DNA of 17,366 bases from an uncultured Acidobacteriota bacterium (GTDB lineage Bacteria > Acidobacteriota > Thermoanaerobaculia > Gp7-AA8): contig CAMPKJ010000080.1 of the NCBI GenBank assembly GCA_946887105.1, positions 1-17,366 of the forward strand, in the 5' to 3' direction. A model generated the notes under the pieces. The model saw nothing but the letters and a program-made list of their open reading frames with translations. It did no database searches and had not been told where the DNA came from. The translations under genes and the position numbers were made by a program. Shown piece after piece: positions 3,796-15,518 of this stretch. Positions within the stretch are counted from its first letter, which is position 1. The number at the start of each line of letters is the position of its first letter.

Positions 3796-5436
3796 TTGTT
3801 CGTCCCGAAGTCGATCATCTGTTTACGTGAAGGGTATACACGCGAGACCGTGCTGCGCGATGTCATCGCCGGCGTCGTGGTGGGGATCGTTGCACTTCCA
3901 CTGGCACTGGCGTTCGCCATCGCCTCGGGCGTACCTCCCGAGCGCGGCCTCTACACCGCCATCATCGCCGGCTTCCTGATCTCCGCTCTGGGCGGGAGCC
4001 GCGTGCAGATCGGCGGACCGACCGGCGCATTCGTGGTCATCGTCTACGGCATCGTGCAGCAGTTCGGCTACGAGGGACTGGTGATCTGCACCGTCCTGGC
4101 CGGCGCGATCCTGGTCGTCCTCGGCCTGGCGCGCATGGGCGCGCTCATCAAATACATCCCTTATCCCGTCATCACCGGCTTCACCGCCGGCATCGCGGTG
4201 ATCATCTTCTCGTCGCAGATGAAAGACTTCTTCGGCCTGAAGATGGGCGCCGTTCCGGCGGACTTCATGGAGAAGTGGGTCGCGTACGCCGGCAACTTCG
4301 GCTCGATCGATCCGGCCACCGCGTTCCTCGCGGTCGGCACTCTGGCCGTGCTCCTGATCTGGCCGCGGATCTCGCGCGTCATTCCGGGACCGTTCGTTGC
4401 GATGATCCTGGCCACGCTGGTCGTGCAGCTCTTCGATCTGCCGGTTGAGACCATCGGCTCGCGCTTCGGCGGCGTCCCTTCATCGCTGCCGCGCCCGCAC
4501 TGGCCGGACATCCCGTGGACGCACATCCGCGCGCTCGTTTCGCCGTCGCTGACGATCGCCCTGCTGGCCGCGATCGAATCGCTTCTCTCCGCGGTCGTGG
4601 CCGACGGCATGATCGGCACGCGCCACAAATCAAACATGGAGCTCGTCGCGCAGGGCGTCGCCAACATCGCCTCGCCGATCTTCGGCGGCATCCCGGCGAC
4701 CGGCGCGATCGCACGCACCGCCACGAACGTACGCACGGGCGGGCGTACGCCGCTCGCGGGCATCGTGCACGCCGTCACGCTGATGCTCATCCTGCTGCTG
4801 CTCGGAAAGTGGGCGGCCATGATTCCGCTCTGCGCGCTGGCGGCGATCCTGGTGGTGGTCGCGTATCACATGAGCGAGTGGCGATCGTTCGCCGGACTGC
4901 TGCGCGCGCCGAAGAGCGACATCGCGGTACTGCTGATCACCTTTGCGCTGACCGTGTTCGTCGACCTCACGATAGCGGTGCAGATCGGCATCGTCGCGGC
5001 CTCGCTGCTCTTCATGAAGCGCATGGCCGACATCACGCAGATCGAGGGCGTCACTGCCGCGGATCCCGCGGACGATGACGTCGGGGAAATCAGCCAGGTG
5101 CGGCGCCGCAAGAACATTCTCGGCGGACGCGAGATCCCGGCCGGCGTCGAGGTGTACGAGGTGAATGGCCCGTTTTTCTTCGGCGTGGCCGACAAGCTCA
5201 AGGACGTGATGTCGGAGATCGCCAAGCCACCCAGGGTTTTCATCGTGCGCATGCGCCACGTGCCGGCCGTCGACGCGACCGGACTGCACGCGCTCGACCA
5301 GATGGCGAAGAAGTGCCGCGCGCAGGGAACGTTGCTGGTCCTCACCGAGATTCGCGAACAGCCGCGCAATGCGATCGCGCGGTCGGGAAAGTCGTTCGAG
5401 ATCGTGGAGACGTTGGACGAGGCGCGGGCGCGTTAG
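3796..5436 (+). CDS. SulP-family anion transporter with C-terminal STAS domain
   Basis: The 546-aa protein is an inner-membrane secondary anion transporter of the SulP (SLC26-like) family. Known substrates in the family include sulfate, bicarbonate and dicarboxylates; the substrate here cannot be read from sequence. The N-terminus shows the family pattern YTRETVLRDVIAGVVVGIVA (residues 14-33), followed by LPLALAFAIASG. A GGPTGAF motif and a later TGAIARTATNVRTGGRTPLAG stretch (written ATGAIARTATNVRTGG plus RTPLAG, around 300-320) are SulP hallmarks. About 11-14 membrane segments fill residues 20-410. The STAS domain covers roughly 445-546 and contains the conserved DATG loop at 493-496. The start is uncertain. 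TTG at 3796 is the first usable codon in frame. GTG at 3850 would remove the YTRE segment that homologues keep, so the upstream start is preferred. The gene sits 26 bp after the preceding stop. Confidence 0.92.
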   Translation: MFVPKSIICLREGYTRETVLRDVIAGVVVGIVALPLALAFAIASGVPPERGLYTAIIAGFLISALGGSRVQIGGPTGAFVVIVYGIVQQFGYEGLVICTVLAGAILVVLGLARMGALIKYIPYPVITGFTAGIAVIIFSSQMKDFFGLKMGAVPADFMEKWVAYAGNFGSIDPATAFLAVGTLAVLLIWPRISRVIPGPFVAMILATLVVQLFDLPVETIGSRFGGVPSSLPRPHWPDIPWTHIRALVSPSLTIALLAAIESLLSAVVADGMIGTRHKSNMELVAQGVANIASPIFGGIPATGAIARTATNVRTGGRTPLAGIVHAVTLMLILLLLGKWAAMIPLCALAAILVVVAYHMSEWRSFAGLLRAPKSDIAVLLITFALTVFVDLTIAVQIGIVAASLLFMKRMADITQIEGVTAADPADDDVGEISQVRRRKNILGGREIPAGVEVYEVNGPFFFGVADKLKDVMSEIAKPPRVFIVRMRHVPAVDATGLHALDQMAKKCRAQGTLLVLTEIREQPRNAIARSGKSFEIVETLDEARAR

Positions 5437-5443
5437 ACACGCT

Positions 5444-5513
5444 GGCTGGCGTTGGGGGTCAGGAGCCGCGCGCCTGCGGGCTGGCGTTGGGCGTCAGGTG
5501 CCGCGCGCCTGCA
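5444..5513 (+). repeat. Tandem 35-bp duplication of the repeat arm
   Basis: Bases 5444-5478 and 5479-5513 are adjacent copies of the same 35-bp unit, which begins GGCTGGCGTTGGG. They differ at three positions (unit positions 14, 21 and 35), giving 32 of 35 identities. Only the inner unit has a free partner at the right end of the palindrome (5624-5640), so either unit could pair with that single right arm. Confidence 0.9.
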
Positions 5514-5640
5514 GGGCGCGCGGGGGCGTCTGGGCGGTCTCGCGAAAGATCGCTCGTGTGCAACCTGGGCTGCATCGCGAGACGGGCCGGATGCGCCGGC
5601 GGCGCTCTGGCGCCGCGGCTCCCGACGCCCAACGCCAGCC
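5444..5640 (+). repeat. Structured palindromic intergenic repeat, copy A
   Basis: The 234-bp gap between the SulP and antiporter genes is almost filled by nested inverted repeats. The outer arms GGCTGGCGTTGGGCGTC (5479-5495) and its exact complement (5624-5640) form a perfect 17-bp stem. Inside are three hairpins: CCGCGCGCC (5501-5509) with GGCGCGCGG (5515-5523) around a TGCAG loop; GTCTCGCGA (5537-5545) with TCGCGAGAC (5575-5583) around a 29-nt loop; and GCGGCGC with GCGCCGC around a TCTG loop near 5599-5616. The left arm is duplicated just upstream. The element resembles copy B (7363-7500) in sequence, order of hairpins and orientation. I see no ORF worth calling in it. It could be a REP/BIME-like or MITE-like dispersed repeat and could also act as a transcription end for the SulP gene. 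Confidence 0.85.
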
Positions 5641-5656
5641 TCGAATCCTTCCGTCG

Positions 5657-5662
5657 CATAAA
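5657..5662 (+). promoter_or_regulatory. Possible -10 box CATAAA before ybaL
   Basis: CATAAA matches four of six positions of TATAAT and ends 8 nt before the GTG start codon. There is no Shine-Dalgarno sequence between them, which would fit a leaderless mRNA. No good -35 box was identified. Confidence 0.25.
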
Positions 5663-5670
5663 CTGCGGCG

Positions 5671-7362
5671 GTGCCTCATGAGCTGACCCTCATCACCACC
5701 CTCGCCACCGCGTTCGGCATGGCGCTGGTCCTCGGGTTCGTCGCGGCGCGGCTGAAGCTGCCGCCGCTGGTCGGGTATCTCGTGGCGGGCGTGCTGGTGG
5801 GACCGCACACGCGCGGGTTCACGGCGGACGTCGAGCTGGCCGGTCAGCTCGCCGAGATCGGCGTGATGTTGCTGATGTTCGGCGTCGGCCTGCACTTCTC
5901 GCTCGAGGATCTCGCGGCCGTGCGGCGCATCGCCCTCCCCGGCGCGGTCGTACAGATCGCCGTGGCCACCACGCTCGCGGCCATCACGGCGATGCTCTGG
6001 GGCTGGAGCTTCGGCGGCGGTCTCGTGTTCGGACTGTCGTTGTCGGTCGCCAGCACGGTGGTGTTGTTGCGCGCACTCGAAGCGCGCGGCCAATTCGAAT
6101 CGTTGAATGGCCGCATCGCCGTCGGCTGGCTGATCGTCGAGGATCTGGTGACGGTGCTGGTGCTGGTCATTCTGCCGCCGCTGGCGGCCGTGCTCGGCGG
6201 ACATGCGGACGGCGATGCGGGCCGCGGCGTGGGGATGACGCTGCTGATCACGTTCGCGAAAGTGGGCGCGTTCATCGTGCTGATGCTCGTGGTCGGCCGC
6301 CGGGTGTTTCCGCGCGTGCTGTGGGTGGTGGCAAAGACCGGTTCGCGCGAACTCTTCACGTTATGCGTCATCGCCGCCGCTGTGGGCATCGCGTATGGCG
6401 CCGCGGAGCTGTTCGGCGTCTCGTTCGCTCTGGGCGCGTTTTTCGCCGGCATGATGATGCGCGAATCGGCGCTCAGCCATCGGGCAGCCGAGGAGTCGTT
6501 GCCGTTGCAGGATGCGTTCGCGGTGCTGTTTTTCGTTTCGGTGGGGATGCTGTTCGATCCGATGGTGATGGTGCGGCAGCCGCTGCAGATCATCATCGTC
6601 GTGGCCATCGTCATGATCGGCAAGACCCTCGCCGCGGTCGGGATCGTGCTGCTCTTCCGCTACCCGCTGACGACCGCGCTGACCGTCGGCGCCGGACTCG
6701 CGCAGATCGGCGAGTTCTCGTTCATCCTGGCCGGGTTGGGCGTCAGCCTCGGATTGCTGCCGGTCGAGGGACAGAGCCTCATCCTCGCCGGCGCGATCGT
6801 CTCCATCGCGTTGAATCCGCTGCTCTTCACCGCCATCGAGCCGGTACAGCGCTGGATCCGCGAACGCTCCGACCTGGCGCGGAAGCTCGACCGCAGCATG
6901 GATCCTCTGGCCACGCTGCCGATGACCGTCGACCAGGACCGCCTGACCGCGCACGTCGTGCTGGTCGGCTACGGACGCGTCGGACGGCGTATCGCAAACG
7001 CACTCACCGAGAACAACATCCCGTTCGTCGTGGCCGAGCAGAACCGCGAGCTGGTCGAGCTGCTTCGCTCGCGCAACATCCCCGCCGTCTCGGGCGACGC
7101 CTCCGATCCGGCCGTGCTGATCCAGGCGCACGTGCAGCGCGCGAGCATGCTCGTGATCGCCACGCCGGATACCTTCGGCGTGCGCAAGATGGTCGAAACC
7201 GCGCGCATGCTTCGGCCGCAGATCGAAGTGGTGGTGCGCACGCACAGCGATGAAGAAGCGGAACTCTTGCGCAACGAGAACATCGGGCGGATCTTCATGG
7301 GCGAGCACGAGCTGGCCCTCGGCATGACCGAGCACGTTCTACACACGATGGAAGCGAAGTAG
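5671..7362 (+). CDS. ybaL: YbaL/KefB-type monovalent cation:proton antiporter with RCK domain
   Basis: The 563-aa inner-membrane protein belongs to the CPA2 cation/proton antiporter family (Kef/YbaL branch) and should exchange K+ or another cation for protons. Similarity to E. coli YbaL is visible over the whole length: LITTL near the N-terminus, PPLVGYLVAGVLVGPHT, LMFGVGLHFSLEDL, the SVASTVVLLRALE and VGWLIVEDL core helices, ELFGVSFALGAFFAGM, and DAFAVLFFVSVGMLFDP. A cytoplasmic RCK/TrkA-N domain starts near residue 427 with the dinucleotide-binding motif GYGRVG (about 433-438), followed by an acidic end of strand 2 and a GDASDP segment. Length is close to YbaL. The GTG start at 5671 is chosen because MPHELTLITT aligns with the family N-terminus; the nearby ATG at 5678 is out of frame. 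The gene is flanked on both sides by palindromic repeats and looks like its own transcription unit. The symbol denotes family similarity, not proven function. Confidence 0.93.
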   Translation: MPHELTLITTLATAFGMALVLGFVAARLKLPPLVGYLVAGVLVGPHTRGFTADVELAGQLAEIGVMLLMFGVGLHFSLEDLAAVRRIALPGAVVQIAVATTLAAITAMLWGWSFGGGLVFGLSLSVASTVVLLRALEARGQFESLNGRIAVGWLIVEDLVTVLVLVILPPLAAVLGGHADGDAGRGVGMTLLITFAKVGAFIVLMLVVGRRVFPRVLWVVAKTGSRELFTLCVIAAAVGIAYGAAELFGVSFALGAFFAGMMMRESALSHRAAEESLPLQDAFAVLFFVSVGMLFDPMVMVRQPLQIIIVVAIVMIGKTLAAVGIVLLFRYPLTTALTVGAGLAQIGEFSFILAGLGVSLGLLPVEGQSLILAGAIVSIALNPLLFTAIEPVQRWIRERSDLARKLDRSMDPLATLPMTVDQDRLTAHVVLVGYGRVGRRIANALTENNIPFVVAEQNRELVELLRSRNIPAVSGDASDPAVLIQAHVQRASMLVIATPDTFGVRKMVETARMLRPQIEVVVRTHSDEEAELLRNENIGRIFMGEHELALGMTEHVLHTMEAK

Positions 7363-7500
7363 TCAGGAGCCATGCGCGCCCTGCAGGCGCGCGCGGGGGC
7401 GTCTGGGAAATCGCGATAAAGCCAGGTTTCGCAAGATTGGCCTCATCGCGAGATCTCCCAGACACCCCCGCGGCGCTCCGGCGCCGCGGCTCCTGACGCC
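7363..7500 (+). repeat. Structured palindromic intergenic repeat, copy B
   Basis: The repeat begins directly after the ybaL stop codon. The outer arms are TCAGGAGCC (7363-7371, with the preceding stop-codon G extending it) and GGCTCCTGA (7488-7496). Inside are three hairpins: a GC-rich palindrome around CTGCAG (about 7374-7394); a long hairpin in which GGGGGCGTCTGGGA (7395-7408) pairs with 7456-7469 at 13 of 14 positions and TCGCGA (7411-7416) pairs with 7446-7451; and CCGCGGCGC (7468-7476) with GCGCCGCGG (7481-7489), a perfect 9-bp stem closed by TCCG. The last is a C(UNCG)G-type tetraloop in RNA. Copy A has the same parts in the same order. There is no T-tract, so it is not a textbook terminator, although it may end the ybaL transcript. 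Confidence 0.85.
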
Positions 7501-7531
7501 AGCGCGCTCTGCGCGCAAACACTCCCCGCAC

Positions 7532-7537
7532 TACAAT
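7532..7537 (+). promoter_or_regulatory. Candidate -10 box TACAAT before the LolD-like ATPase gene
   Basis: TACAAT matches five of six positions of the sigma-70 -10 consensus and is followed by 8 nt and then the ATG at 7546. No Shine-Dalgarno sequence lies in those 8 nt. A start site 7-9 nt after the box would fall at or next to the A of ATG. No good -35 box was seen. Confidence 0.4.
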
Positions 7538-7545
7538 CCCCCGTC

Positions 7546-8250
7546 ATGAGCTCACTCGTAGAAATCCGCGACGTTCACAAGGTCTACAAGCGCGACTCGT
7601 TCGACGTGCCCGTTCTGAACGGCGTCTCCGTCGACGTTCCGCGCGGTGATTTCCTCGCGCTGATGGGTCCCTCCGGATCGGGCAAGACCACGCTCCTCAA
7701 CCTGATCGCCGGCATCGACCGCCCCACGCGCGGACAGGTGGTGGTCGACGGCAAGGAAATCTCCGCGTACAACGAGACCAGGCTCGCCACGTGGCGCGCG
7801 CAGCACGTCGGGTTCATCTTCCAGATGTACAACCTGATTCCGGTGCTCAATGCGTTCGAGAACGTCGAGCTGCCGTTGCTGCTCACGCATCTCAACAAAC
7901 GCGAGCGGCGCGAGCACGTCGAGGCGGCGTTGAAGATCGTTGGCCTGCCTGACCGCATGACGCACTATCCGCGGCAGCTGTCCGGCGGCCAGGAGCAGCG
8001 CGTGGCCATCGCGCGCGCCATCGCCACCGATCCGACCATCCTCGTCGCCGACGAGCCGACCGGTGACCTCGACGCGAAGAGCGCGCACGAGATCCTCGAT
8101 CTGCTGCAGCAGCTCAACGCCGAGTATCAGAAGACCATCATCATGGTCACGCACGATCCGAAGGCCGCGGATCGCGCCCGTCACACGCTGCACCTGGACA
8201 AAGGCGTTCTGGTCGAACAGGGGCAGGAATCCCGCGTGGTGCAGGCATGA
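7546..8250 (+). CDS. LolD/MacB-type ABC transporter ATP-binding protein
   Basis: The 234-aa cytoplasmic ATPase has every core ABC motif: Walker A GPSGSGKT (41-48), a Q-loop in [20 protein letters not shown], signature [16 protein letters not shown], Walker B and D-loop [12 protein letters not shown] (165-176) and the switch His in MVTHD (H203). The YNLIP segment after the Q-loop and the overall size are typical of the LolD/MacB/FtsE group, which drives FtsX-type mechanotransmission permeases. The signature has QEQ where QQQ is usual, a mild change. Its stop codon overlaps the ATG of the next gene by 4 bp (ATGA). It should therefore form a complex with the two permeases that follow. Whether the system moves lipoproteins, exports small molecules or controls envelope enzymes cannot be read from the sequence. 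Confidence 0.95.
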
Positions 8251-12606: not shown

Positions 12607-12954
12607 ATGTCCGACGTCGACGGCTTCCTCCCTCTCCCACCGGCCACGTTTCACATCCTGCTCGCGCTCAGCGATGGCGAGCGCCATGGCTACGCGATCA
12701 TCCAGGAAGTGGAGGCGCGTACCGACGGCGAGCTGCGGCTGAGCGCGGGCACGCTGTACCGCTCCATCGCGCGCATGGTGGAACAGGGACTGATCGCCGA
12801 GGTCACACGCCGTGCGTCGAAGCAGGACGATCCGCGCCGGCGCTATTACCGGGTCACTCCGTTCGGCACCTCTGTCGCGCGCGCGGAGATGCGCCGCCTG
12901 ACCCAGCTCGTGAAGATCGCCCGCGCCAGCGGCCTGACTCCGGAGAGTGCGTGA
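12607..12954 (+). CDS. PadR-family winged-helix transcriptional regulator
   Basis: The 115-aa DNA-binding protein has the short-PadR layout. It opens LPPATFHILLALSDGERHGYAI (read LPPATFHILLALSDGE, RHGYAI), continues through the wing helix LRLSAGTLYRSIARMVEQGLI and ends the domain with RRRYYRVTPFG. These are standard blocks for the family, whose members dimerise through a C-terminal helix and usually repress adjacent membrane-protein operons. The ligand is unknown. Its TGA overlaps the ATG of the ADOP permease by one base, an arrangement common for PadR/ADOP pairs. The ATG at 12607 follows the promoter directly with no leader, and its operator probably lies at 12561-12598. Confidence 0.95.
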   Translation: MSDVDGFLPLPPATFHILLALSDGERHGYAIIQEVEARTDGELRLSAGTLYRSIARMVEQGLIAEVTRRASKQDDPRRRYYRVTPFGTSVARAEMRRLTQLVKIARASGLTPESA

Positions 12955-15518
12955 TGCGCTTCTATCGCCTGTTGCTGCGGCTCTATCCCTCCTCGTTTCG
13001 TGGCGCGTACGGCGACGAGCTGACCACCGTTTTCGAGGAGCGCACGCGACACATGCCGGCGCCGCGGAAGCCGCTCGCCGCGATCGCGGACGTCGTCCCA
13101 AACGCGTTCGCCGTGCACGCCGACCTGCTCGCGCAGGATCTGCGCTACGCCGTGCGCTCCCTCTTCCGCGCACCCGGCTTTGCCATCACGGCCATCCTCG
13201 TCGCCGCCCTCGGCATCGGCGCGAACACCACCGCGTTCTCGCTCGCCGACTTCGTGCTCGTGCGTCCGTTGCCATTCCCCGAGCCCGATCGCCTGCTGAA
13301 GCTGTGGGAGAAGTATCAATCCGGGCGCAACGTCGTGTCGCCTGCGAACTTCCTCGACTGGAAAGAGCAATCGCGCTCGTTCGAGGCGATGGCTGCATAC
13401 ACAGTGCGCCCGGCAAATCTCGTCGGGATGGGCGATCCGCGTCAGCTGGAGCTGGTCCGCGCTACGCCGGAAGTCCTGCCGGCCGTCGGTGTCGCTCCGC
13501 TGCTCGGCCGCCACTTCACCGCCGCGGAAGCCGCAAACAGTGCGCCGCTGATGCTCAGTTACGCGCTGTGGCAATCGCAGTTCGGCGGCGTGCCGGACGT
13601 CATCGGCCGCGTCGTGCGGCTCGATGGAGCACCGCACACGATCGTCGGTGTGATGCCGCCGGCGTTTCAGTTCCCACGCCGCGGGATCGACGCGTGGTCG
13701 CCGCTGCTCCTGAACGAAGAAAGCCGCGAGGATCGCACCGACACGTTTCTCGAAGTGATCGGCCGTCTTCGCAAGGGAGTGACGGTCGAGCAGGCGCGTG
13801 AGGAGCTCGAGCTGATCGCGTCGCGCCTGGAACGGCAATATCCGGAGGAAAACAAGGACCTCGGCGTGCACGTCTGGCGTCTGCGCGATGAGGTCGGGGC
13901 GAGCGCACGGATGCTCGTGCTGGCATTGTGCGGCGCCGCGCTCTGCATCCTGCTGCTGTCGTGCGCGAACCTGGCCAGCCTGTTCCTGGTGCGAGGCGCG
14001 AGCCGCGCGCGCGAGCTGGCCGTGCGCTCGGCACTCGGCGCCGGACGCGAGCGGCTGGTCCGCCAGCTCGTGACCGAAAGCTTCGTCATCGCCATCCTCG
14101 GCGGCATCGCCGGCGTCGGGCTCGCAACCGCGACCGTTCCACTGCTCACGCGTCTCGTGCCGCCAGCGCTGCCGATCGCCGAATATCCATCCATCGATGT
14201 GCGCGTGCTCGGCGTAGCCGCGCTGTTCATGGTGCTGACCGGGCTCGCCTTCGGCGTTCTTCCCGCGGTGCGCGCGGGCGGAGGACAGATGCTCGACGCG
14301 TTGCGCGCCGATGCGCGCAGCGGTGGCGGGCGCACGCAACGTCTGCGCTCCGCGCTGGTGATCATCGAGATCGTCGCGTCGGTGGTGTTGCTCATCTCGT
14401 CGGGACTCCTGATTCGCGCGGTCTGGAACATCCAGCAGACCAGGCCGGGCTTCCGCACCGACAACGTGCTCGCGCTGCGCACCGCCTTGCCGCTGCCGAA
14501 ATACGAGAACGTCTCGTTCCGGGCGCGCTTCTACGAGCGCGTGCTCGATGACGTGCGCGCGCTGCCGGGCGTGCAGAGCGCGGCGTACATCACCGGCTTG
14601 CCGATGGAGATGCGCGGCGGAATCTGGCCTGTGGCCATGCCGGGTGAAGAGGAGATACGCGACGGTTCCGCGAACGTCAGCATGCGATTCGTGACGCCAC
14701 AGTTCTTCAGCACGCTGGGCATTCCGCTGCTGCGCGGCCGCGACGTGGCCACCACAGACGCCGCCGATCGTCCGTACGTGGCCGTCGTGAGTGAATCGTT
14801 CGCGCAGCGGCACTGGCCGGGGCAGGATCCGCTCGGCAAGCGATTCAAGCTCGCATTTTTCGAGCGCACGGTGATCGGTGTGGCCGGCGACGTGCGCGTG
14901 CGCGGTCTCGAGCAGACCAGCGAGCCGCAGGTGTACCTGTCGTACAAGCAGGTTCCCGACAATGGCCTGATCGGGTACGTGCCGAAAGAGCTGGTGGTGC
15001 GTTCGACGGCGCATCCGGACGCGCTCATCGCGCCCGTTCGCGAGATCGTGCGCCGCGCCGATCCCGAGCAGCCGGTCTCGAATGCGCGCACGCTCGAGAC
15101 GATCCTCCAGGAAGAAACGGCGACGCGCGTGACGCAGGTACGCCTCCTTTCCGCGATGGCCGCAATCGCGCTGCTCATCGCCGCGATCGGCATTCACGGT
15201 CTGCTCGCCTACACCGTTTCGCTGCGCTGGCGCGAGCTCGGCGTGCGGCTCGCCCTCGGCGCGCAGACCGATGGAATCGTGCGGCTGGTGTTGCGCGACG
15301 GACTCGTGCTCGCCGCGATCGGCATCGCCGCCGGGATGTTTCTCGCCTATCTCGCGGCGCGCAGCATGGGCGCGCTGCTGGCCGGGATCCGGCCGATGGA
15401 TCCGGTGACGTTCGCGGTCGCGTCCGCACTCTGTTTCCTGACCGTGCTCGCGGGATGCCTGCGGCCGGCGCTCCGCGCGGCGCGCGTCGATCCGATGACG
15501 GCATTGCGCGCGGAGTGA
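12954..15518 (+). CDS. ADOP-type (acidobacterial duplicated orphan permease) FtsX/MacB-like ABC permease
   Basis: The 854-aa membrane protein is a tandem duplication of a MacB/FtsX-type permease. An N-terminal prefix (MRFYRLLLRLYPSSFRGAYG, residues 1-20, through about 60) is characteristic of ADOP proteins. DLRYAVRSLFRAPGF follows, then helix 1 (76-100) with LGIGANTTAFSL, a periplasmic core, helices at about 319-345, 375-402 and 415-440, and then a second half with helices near 466-490, 731-758, 784-810 and 816-840, ending RVDPMTALRAE. Two periplasmic core domains lie between. No ATPase gene is adjacent, which is the orphan feature; a partner encoded elsewhere is presumed. The start at 12954 is chosen because the prefix begins there and overlaps the padR stop; the frame stays open upstream only inside padR. 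Function and substrate are not established. Confidence 0.94.
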   Translation: MRFYRLLLRLYPSSFRGAYGDELTTVFEERTRHMPAPRKPLAAIADVVPNAFAVHADLLAQDLRYAVRSLFRAPGFAITAILVAALGIGANTTAFSLADFVLVRPLPFPEPDRLLKLWEKYQSGRNVVSPANFLDWKEQSRSFEAMAAYTVRPANLVGMGDPRQLELVRATPEVLPAVGVAPLLGRHFTAAEAANSAPLMLSYALWQSQFGGVPDVIGRVVRLDGAPHTIVGVMPPAFQFPRRGIDAWSPLLLNEESREDRTDTFLEVIGRLRKGVTVEQAREELELIASRLERQYPEENKDLGVHVWRLRDEVGASARMLVLALCGAALCILLLSCANLASLFLVRGASRARELAVRSALGAGRERLVRQLVTESFVIAILGGIAGVGLATATVPLLTRLVPPALPIAEYPSIDVRVLGVAALFMVLTGLAFGVLPAVRAGGGQMLDALRADARSGGGRTQRLRSALVIIEIVASVVLLISSGLLIRAVWNIQQTRPGFRTDNVLALRTALPLPKYENVSFRARFYERVLDDVRALPGVQSAAYITGLPMEMRGGIWPVAMPGEEEIRDGSANVSMRFVTPQFFSTLGIPLLRGRDVATTDAADRPYVAVVSESFAQRHWPGQDPLGKRFKLAFFERTVIGVAGDVRVRGLEQTSEPQVYLSYKQVPDNGLIGYVPKELVVRSTAHPDALIAPVREIVRRADPEQPVSNARTLETILQEETATRVTQVRLLSAMAAIALLIAAIGIHGLLAYTVSLRWRELGVRLALGAQTDGIVRLVLRDGLVLAAIGIAAGMFLAYLAARSMGALLAGIRPMDPVTFAVASALCFLTVLAGCLRPALRAARVDPMTALRAE

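Follow-up and report, generated by a model that had tools for sequence, protein, structure and literature searches.

Two inverted paired-hairpin elements downstream of transporter genes in an Acidobacteriota contig resemble REPIN-type repeats in plan

Three genes on the forward strand of a 17,366-nucleotide (nt) stretch of DNA from an uncultured Acidobacteriota bacterium (contig CAMPKJ010000080.1; the whole stretch is called the window below) are separated by two gaps, each of which holds one copy of a highly structured repeat. Open reading frame (ORF) and protein comparison assigned the genes to a SulP-type transporter with a STAS domain (3796-5436), a YbaL-type CPA2 cation/proton antiporter (5671-7362) and an ABC transporter ATPase (7546-8250). 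The first copy, element A (5444-5640), lies between the sulP-type and ybaL-type genes and begins 4-7 nt past the sulP-type stop codon (ORF end 5436). The second, element B (7362-7503, with its core at 7362-7500), lies between the ybaL-type and ATPase genes and begins directly at the ybaL-type stop codon (ORF end 7362).

Alignment of A with B by BLAST revealed 75% identity across 141 nt (E about 1e-17). The local alignment score was 104 in direct orientation against 72 with the reverse complement of B, while 2000 dinucleotide shuffles of B scored a mean of 21.5 against A, with a standard deviation of 3.2 and a maximum of 38. Thus, the likeness is not due to chance and the two copies share one orientation. 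A preliminary description, made from the letters of the sequence, had proposed a pair of intergenic repeats sharing sequence, architecture and orientation; all of this holds. No third copy of A or B was found within the window.

Each element is an imperfect inverted repeat built from two stems, an outer one and a central one with TCGCGA, and two small GC-rich hairpins. The common plan runs from the outer arms through a left hairpin around CTGCAG and a central stem (GGGGGCGTCTGGG..TCGCGA) to a right hairpin, GCGGCGC-TCNG-GCGCCGC, and self-complementarity over the full element amounts to 74-75% in both. Element A starts with an incomplete tandem duplicate of its left arm (5441-5475), which is 91% identical to 5476-5510 over 35 nt, or five times seven; its inverted arms (5444-5470 with 5614-5640) are 93% complementary over 27 nt. 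Element A proper, as delimited by sequence, inverted repeats, folding and alignment, occupies 5476-5640. Its left outer arm (5479-5505) is heptad-like, reading GGCGTTG GGCGTCA GGTGCCG at 5483-5503. There follow a left small hairpin, CGCGCC-TGCAG-GGCGCG (5504-5520), which was recognised by eye and competes with other pairings in the folds; a central stem, GGGGCGTCTGGG..TCTCGCGA paired with TCGCGAGA..GCGCC around a loop (5523-5597); a right small hairpin, GCGGCGC-TCTG-GCGCCGC (5599-5616); and the right outer arm (5614-5640), the 93% complement of the left. The last three are apparent from sequence together with folding or, for the arm, inverted-repeat detection.

Element B, likewise delimited by sequence, folding and alignment, follows the same order. 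Its left outer arm GTCAGGAGCC (7362-7371), which shares its first base with the end of the ybaL-type stop codon, precedes a left small hairpin, GCGCGCC-CTGCA-GGCGCGC (7374-7392), and a central stem, CGGGGGCGTCTGGGA..TCGCGA paired with TCGCGA..TCCCAGACACCCCC around a loop (7394-7469), that was recovered by folding either strand. The right small hairpin, GCGGCGC-TCCG-GCGCCGC (7470-7487), leads into the right outer arm GGCTCCTGAC (7488-7497). This arm is one 7-nt unit shorter than that of A, and the flank GCCAGC, extending to 7503, matches A minus that unit.

Both elements fold with high stability. The folding z-score was -7.4 for the plus strand of A, -7.4 for the plus strand of B and -8.7 for the minus strand of B, and in each case none of 200 shuffles folded as well. 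The minimum-energy fold of A, taken without its extra arm, is one long hairpin and that of B is branched, indicating that clover and long hairpin are alternative folds of the same architecture. The elements are accordingly more elaborate than a single repetitive extragenic palindromic (REP) unit and can be drawn as a clover, as had been suggested. They had not been recognised as a named family, and no Rfam family reached its gathering threshold in A or B; the weak matches all fell in B and were to microRNA-precursor models of long hairpins.

We then sought further copies of the A/B sequence. Searches in relatives were judged at E <= 1e-5 with the A-B match as their sole positive control, and an empty search result without a positive control carries no weight. 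No copy of A was found in 148 genomes of the nearest class (five candidates each) and no copy of B in the 19 genomes of the order that holds the nearest relatives (up to 40 candidates each). In a phylum sample of 396 Acidobacteriota genomes, with two candidates scored per genome, B returned only one 33-nt partial match, in genome G156; in a set of three genomes it matched two, the matches being short and weak (best E 0.007). A further 80 loci around ybaL homologues contained no additional copy of A or B, and B had no match in a plasmid set or a phage set. Screening of viral contigs by 21-mer returned none; by 17-mer it returned nine stretches, none of which BLAST to A or B extended past 17-23 nt and which were judged by eye to be chance. 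A model built from A and B (R1), applied to the 148-genome class under stricter filters, returned a single row, an unrelated hairpin in G492 (E 0.004). The literature searched, comprising titles, starts of abstracts and passages, contained no description of these repeats in Acidobacteriota. Of the dispersed repeat family that had been proposed, the two structured copies therefore stand, while copies in relatives were not found at the threshold used; we infer that A and B may represent such a family.

A family with the same plan was found in a related genome, G289. The best named homologues of the M1-peptidase/ABC-2 fusion protein encoded in the window are mostly from Acidobacteriota labelled Thermoanaerobaculia, with one labelled Vicinamibacterales. 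Among the 396 genomes, this protein had a full-length match at 45% in G233 and a match broken into three pieces (52, 53 and 43%) in G289; the description of G289 as nearest refers to this one protein only. Both genomes fall in the order of 19. Using a lenient threshold, 142 inverted-repeat sites were detected in 400 kb of G289 (loci L183-L202), representing several families; heptamer arms of GCAGAAG and TCATCCTGAGC..GAAGGATCT palindromes are also present among them. The family relevant here possesses outer arms ending GGAGC/GCTCC, two GC-rich small hairpins and a central TCTCGCGA, with the consensus CTGTGGAGC - GGCGGCCG(CYCT)CGGCCGCC - GRTTCTCGCGAGAGGTC - GGCGGCCG(AGRG)CGGCCGCC - GCTCCAC. It occupies 25 places in the 400 kb (48 rows), 12 of them outside the alignment of the model itself, and at least 43 places genome-wide (86 rows over both strands, with 40 of 313 first-look candidates scored), some in tandem clusters. 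Across the 19 genomes, at E <= 1e-6, the family matched in G289 only, apart from half elements in G403 (seven rows).

The stems of this family show some compensatory changes. Among 30 aligned copies, exchanges of G-C for C-G occur in both small hairpins (in six and two copies, respectively), and 94.7% of cells pair compared with at most 66.9% in slid versions of the alignment. The covariation score was 0.052 against 0.019 for shuffled alignments, with none of 500 shuffles as high; the percentage paired and the number of cells changed on both sides likewise exceeded all 500 shuffles.

G289 also encodes a candidate enzyme for such elements. Of the 19 genomes of the order, 18 contain matches to Y1_Tnp (PF01797). 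The only one in G289 at E <= 1e-5 is an intact ORF of 181 amino acids (L197:13044-13589) that scores 103.5 bits on NF047646, REP_Tyr_transpos (cut-off 80), and is thus a REP-associated tyrosine transposase (RAYT). Copies of the two-hairpin family lie beside this gene at 12930-13008, 13495-13573, 13619-13697 and 13743-13820 of L197; the first ends 35 nt before the ORF and two follow it. All four copies in this part of L197 (G289 C4) are of the GTGG-tagged two-hairpin type, and the 3' end of the RAYT gene reads through the one at 13495-13573. The dinucleotide CT directly precedes GTGG in 20 of the 30 aligned copies, which fits the CT cleavage site described in passages of PMC8266576. The G289 family is a RAYT-linked REPIN, that is, a hairpin-forming doublet of REP units. 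A link to a RAYT had been offered as support for REP-like mobility; it is present in G289, where a RAYT has same-plan elements beside it, and absent from the window, where the best tblastn match to a RAYT has an E of 0.14.

Across the order, 30 Y1_Tnp loci were fetched, 16 ORFs were assigned and 14 loci possessed both flanks. Matching repeats were present on both sides in 8 of these 14 usable loci, that of G289 included, several of these repeats being short terminal ones. By eye, the RAYT-like genes of G399, G401 and G410 adjoin GC-rich hairpins with GTGGAGC, GTGTAGC or GTGGGGC. Three Y1_Tnp loci of G405 (L252, L270 and L207) are flanked by units of about 95 nt with three hairpins each, and at L207:5491-5688 there is an inverted dimer of units like these.

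On balance, we lean towards reading A and B as a pair of copies of an element that is lineage-specific, non-autonomous and similar to a REPIN or bacterial interspersed mosaic element (BIME). Such an element would consist of two hairpin-bearing units of about 70-75 nt each in inverted orientation. As single-stranded DNA, each unit would fold into a hairpin; a REP-associated transposase of the Y1 (HUH/tyrosine) type, with its gene elsewhere in the genome, would bind and cut this hairpin. The dimer would thereby be copied into intergenic sites and be best tolerated just behind stop codons. Once inserted, the element would presumably be part of the upstream gene's transcript, forming its 3' end, where so stable a fold could shield the mRNA end or help transcription to stop, albeit not as a classical terminator; this role is plausible for A and B in particular. 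The source genome would be expected to possess its own RAYT and more copies of the element.

Sequence comparison between the window pair and the G289 family yields an asymmetric result. When R1 was applied to 567 kb from G289 and G233, the first four of ten rows were G289-family copies (29.9 to 24.3 bits, E 3e-4 to 5e-3), with five of the ten rows, at three places, belonging to the family in all. A model built from the G289 family (R3), applied to 43 of the 56 loci fetched from G405, G233, G404 and G257, returned three weak rows (best E 0.0016). Several observations weigh against the REPIN-like reading. In the reciprocal comparison, R3 did not find A and scored B at 11.9 bits (E 0.6, rank 7 of 12), such that the likeness lies in the plan rather more than in the sequence. 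The G289 family lacks the long central stem of A and B. The tetranucleotide GT[AG]G is absent from the 0-2 nt before the hairpin foot in A and B, whose hairpins are preceded by AGGAGCC or AGGTGCC; the nearest GTAG (7359-7362) contains the ybaL-type stop codon and lies 11 nt from the left hairpin of B. No RAYT is encoded in the window. A further model, R2, found nothing significant in the 30 Y1_Tnp loci, and the best match of R1 in 29 of the 30 was an unrelated octamer array (22.8 bits, E 0.0017). Within the G289 family itself, the covariation that had been named as a check stood out in three of five measures and not in the remaining two: four pairs changed on both sides, a number reached by 53 of 500 shuffles, and there were eight further pair types, reached by 110 of 500. 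Its outermost two pairs are mostly unpaired, and a rough 15 of 24 copies lie outside called genes, as judged by a crude gene caller that labels 82% of sequence as coding and, in the window, predicts a lengthy minus-strand gene that is probably false. From the two model comparisons, we regard the window pair and the G289 family as sharing an architecture and, to judge from their sequences, as related by distant common descent at most.

The main rival, which we consider unlikely, derives the hairpins from short tandem repeats: A and B would descend from convergent arrays of the heptamer GGNGTCG by slippage and fold-back, no transposition being involved, and would act through a G-quadruplex or hairpin near gene ends in the manner of the GGGNATC-type repeats of Xanthomonas and Nostoc. 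Such arrays are common in 5 of the 19 genomes of the order. At E <= 0.1, R1 returned four rows from the 19 genomes, of which three are inverted GGGNGTC heptamer arrays in G405 and G404; the fourth (G289, L109) is, by eye, probably coding sequence. The best match (G405, E 6e-6) is an array beginning with GGCGTTGGGCGTC, which is also present in the arm of A; the 148-genome search, with its stricter filters, did not return this match. Matches to GGGNGTCGGGNGTCGGG number 328 in G404, 246 in G405, 226 in G257, 50 in G408 and 25 in G032; none occur in the remaining 14 genomes of the order, and a backwards control was zero everywhere except for five matches in G410. The pattern was matched at least once in 38 of the 396 genomes of the phylum sample and 18 or more times in eight of them, with a maximum of 336 (G328). 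Small counts carry little meaning, since about 30 genomes also contain the backwards control, in most cases at one or a few places. The backwards control itself reaches 92 matches in G054, suggesting another heptamer family there. In 37 loci chosen around arrays (L141-L177), 37 of 42 neighbouring array pairs are convergent, with a median gap of 31 nt.

Within the window, (GGNGTCG)x3 is matched best by the three arms of A, at 16 (right arm, 5616-5636), 15 and 15 (one of them the left arm, 5483-5503) of 18 fixed positions. Only one of 300 shuffles reached 16, places scoring at least 15 averaged 0.15 per shuffle, and the variable base sits at the N position. The right arm of A exceeds that of B by exactly one 7-nt unit, and the duplicated arm sequence of A measures 35 nt. 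Conversely, 43 of the 300 shuffles contained a place scoring at least 15, the three arms of A are copies of one another, and nowhere in B does the pattern reach 13 of 18. The consensus GGNGTCG was, moreover, chosen after R1 had led to the arrays. G289 and G233, the nearest genomes by the one protein, lack any match to the pattern. Only the outermost 20-27 nt of A appear heptameric; the core common to A and B, with its small hairpins, GGGGGCGTCTGGG and TCGCGA, does not. A heptamer origin thus covers the outer arms of A and not the shared core.

A rather more doubtful alternative is that A and B are a structured RNA motif of the 3' untranslated region, acting as a terminator, a barrier to RNase or a processing site, which was duplicated locally behind two genes and is immobile. 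Their very stable folds and their placement, 0-7 nt after a stop codon and in gene orientation, are what such a motif would show. The sequence TACAAT (7532-7537), -10-like and noted by eye, precedes the ABC ATPase gene, 8 nt from its ATG, and suggests a leaderless transcript; TAAACT (5659-5664), also -10-like by eye, lies 6 nt before the next start codon after A. Each gene may consequently be its own transcription unit. A 9-mer, TCATGAGCT, occurs at the start of both genes following the elements (5676-5684 and 7544-7552), probably by chance. Set against an RNA motif, the other strand of B folds even better than the transcribed one, an RNA motif has no need of palindromy in the DNA and no Rfam family reached its gathering score. 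Intrinsic terminators comprise a GC-rich hairpin followed by a T-tract; neither A nor B contains a T-tract, and a terminator scan listed nothing in either element.

We also considered whether REPIN-like dimers and G-rich heptamer arrays form one continuum in this branch of the Acidobacteriota, with tandem arms as the outer stem and RAYT-type hairpins inside. A and B would then be tag-less, mobile nested inverted repeats that a divergent RAYT recognises through their fold and not through GTAG. This appears improbable: the GGGNGTC doublet occurs in none of the 30 Y1_Tnp loci, and this lack of heptamer arrays weighs against it. Least credible of all is a classical miniature inverted-repeat transposable element, an internally deleted transposon with terminal inverted repeats, a target-site duplication and a DDE transposase, for although A has 27-nt inverted ends and no gene-like ORF is supported in either element, no target-site duplication was seen by eye around A or B, their ends differ, the inverted symmetry spans the whole element and B has no match in plasmids or phages.

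The gene between the elements is unlikely to have moved as a cassette with its flanking repeats, given that the YbaL-type protein has homologues at 83-86% identity of which at least two are labelled Thermoanaerobaculia by a source. Betaproteobacterial matches of the same protein need not mean a foreign origin.

The order around G289 bears on how REP-type repeats choose and change their recognition features: within one small clade it brings together a genome with a single detected RAYT and a large two-hairpin family, other RAYT-like genes with hairpin sets of their own, and genomes in which inverted heptamer arrays abound. If A and B were indeed mobilised in the absence of a GTRG tag, the definition of a RAYT substrate would have to be widened; if not, A and B would be one more stable 3'-end structure of a known general type.

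Comparison with published systems places A and B closest to the REP-type repeats. The CGTC-tagged REPs (PMC3733652) share with A and B the CGTC of the arms (GGCGTCAGG and GGCGTCTGGG). As characterised in passages of that paper, they have an unpaired CGTC followed by an AT-starting stem with a loop of 4-5 nt and a CCA tail, whereas in A and B the CGTC is paired and neither such a stem nor the tail follows; we therefore do not count A and B among them. The GGGNATC repeats of Xanthomonas and Nostoc, according to the portions of PMC4692102 consulted, consist preferably of four units per array and are the closest published case to the heptamer arrays. They resemble A and B in their G-rich 7-nt units, their position near stop codons on the coding strand and their convergent inverted pairs, and differ in the unit itself: tandem GGNGTCG units are present in the arms of A as three degenerate repeats and are nearly absent from B. 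REPs of the TnpA_REP system are defined in part of the text of PMC6006769 by GT[AG]G at 0-2 nt before the hairpin foot. These GTAG/GTGG-tagged REPs (PMC6006769, PMC8266576; excerpts) share the small GC-rich hairpins with A and B, and the CT before GTGG with the G289 family; the window hairpins differ in the heptamers that take the place of GTRG. Since the tag is missing from the hairpin foot, we do not assign A and B to the REPINs, even though their sequences suggest that they behave as such. Relative to REPINs, as presented in sections of PMC3116915, the window pair is distinguished by its two known copies, its untagged hairpins, the heptad-like outer arms of A and the long central stem. In their general organisation, however, A and B match the REPIN/RAYT system of the same source: a pair of palindromic units, inversely oriented about a spacer and folding into a hairpin; an extragenic location; either a long hairpin or a clover, the configuration named for REPINs in the legend to Figure S11; and, in G289, a RAYT gene lying among copies of a family built to the same plan.

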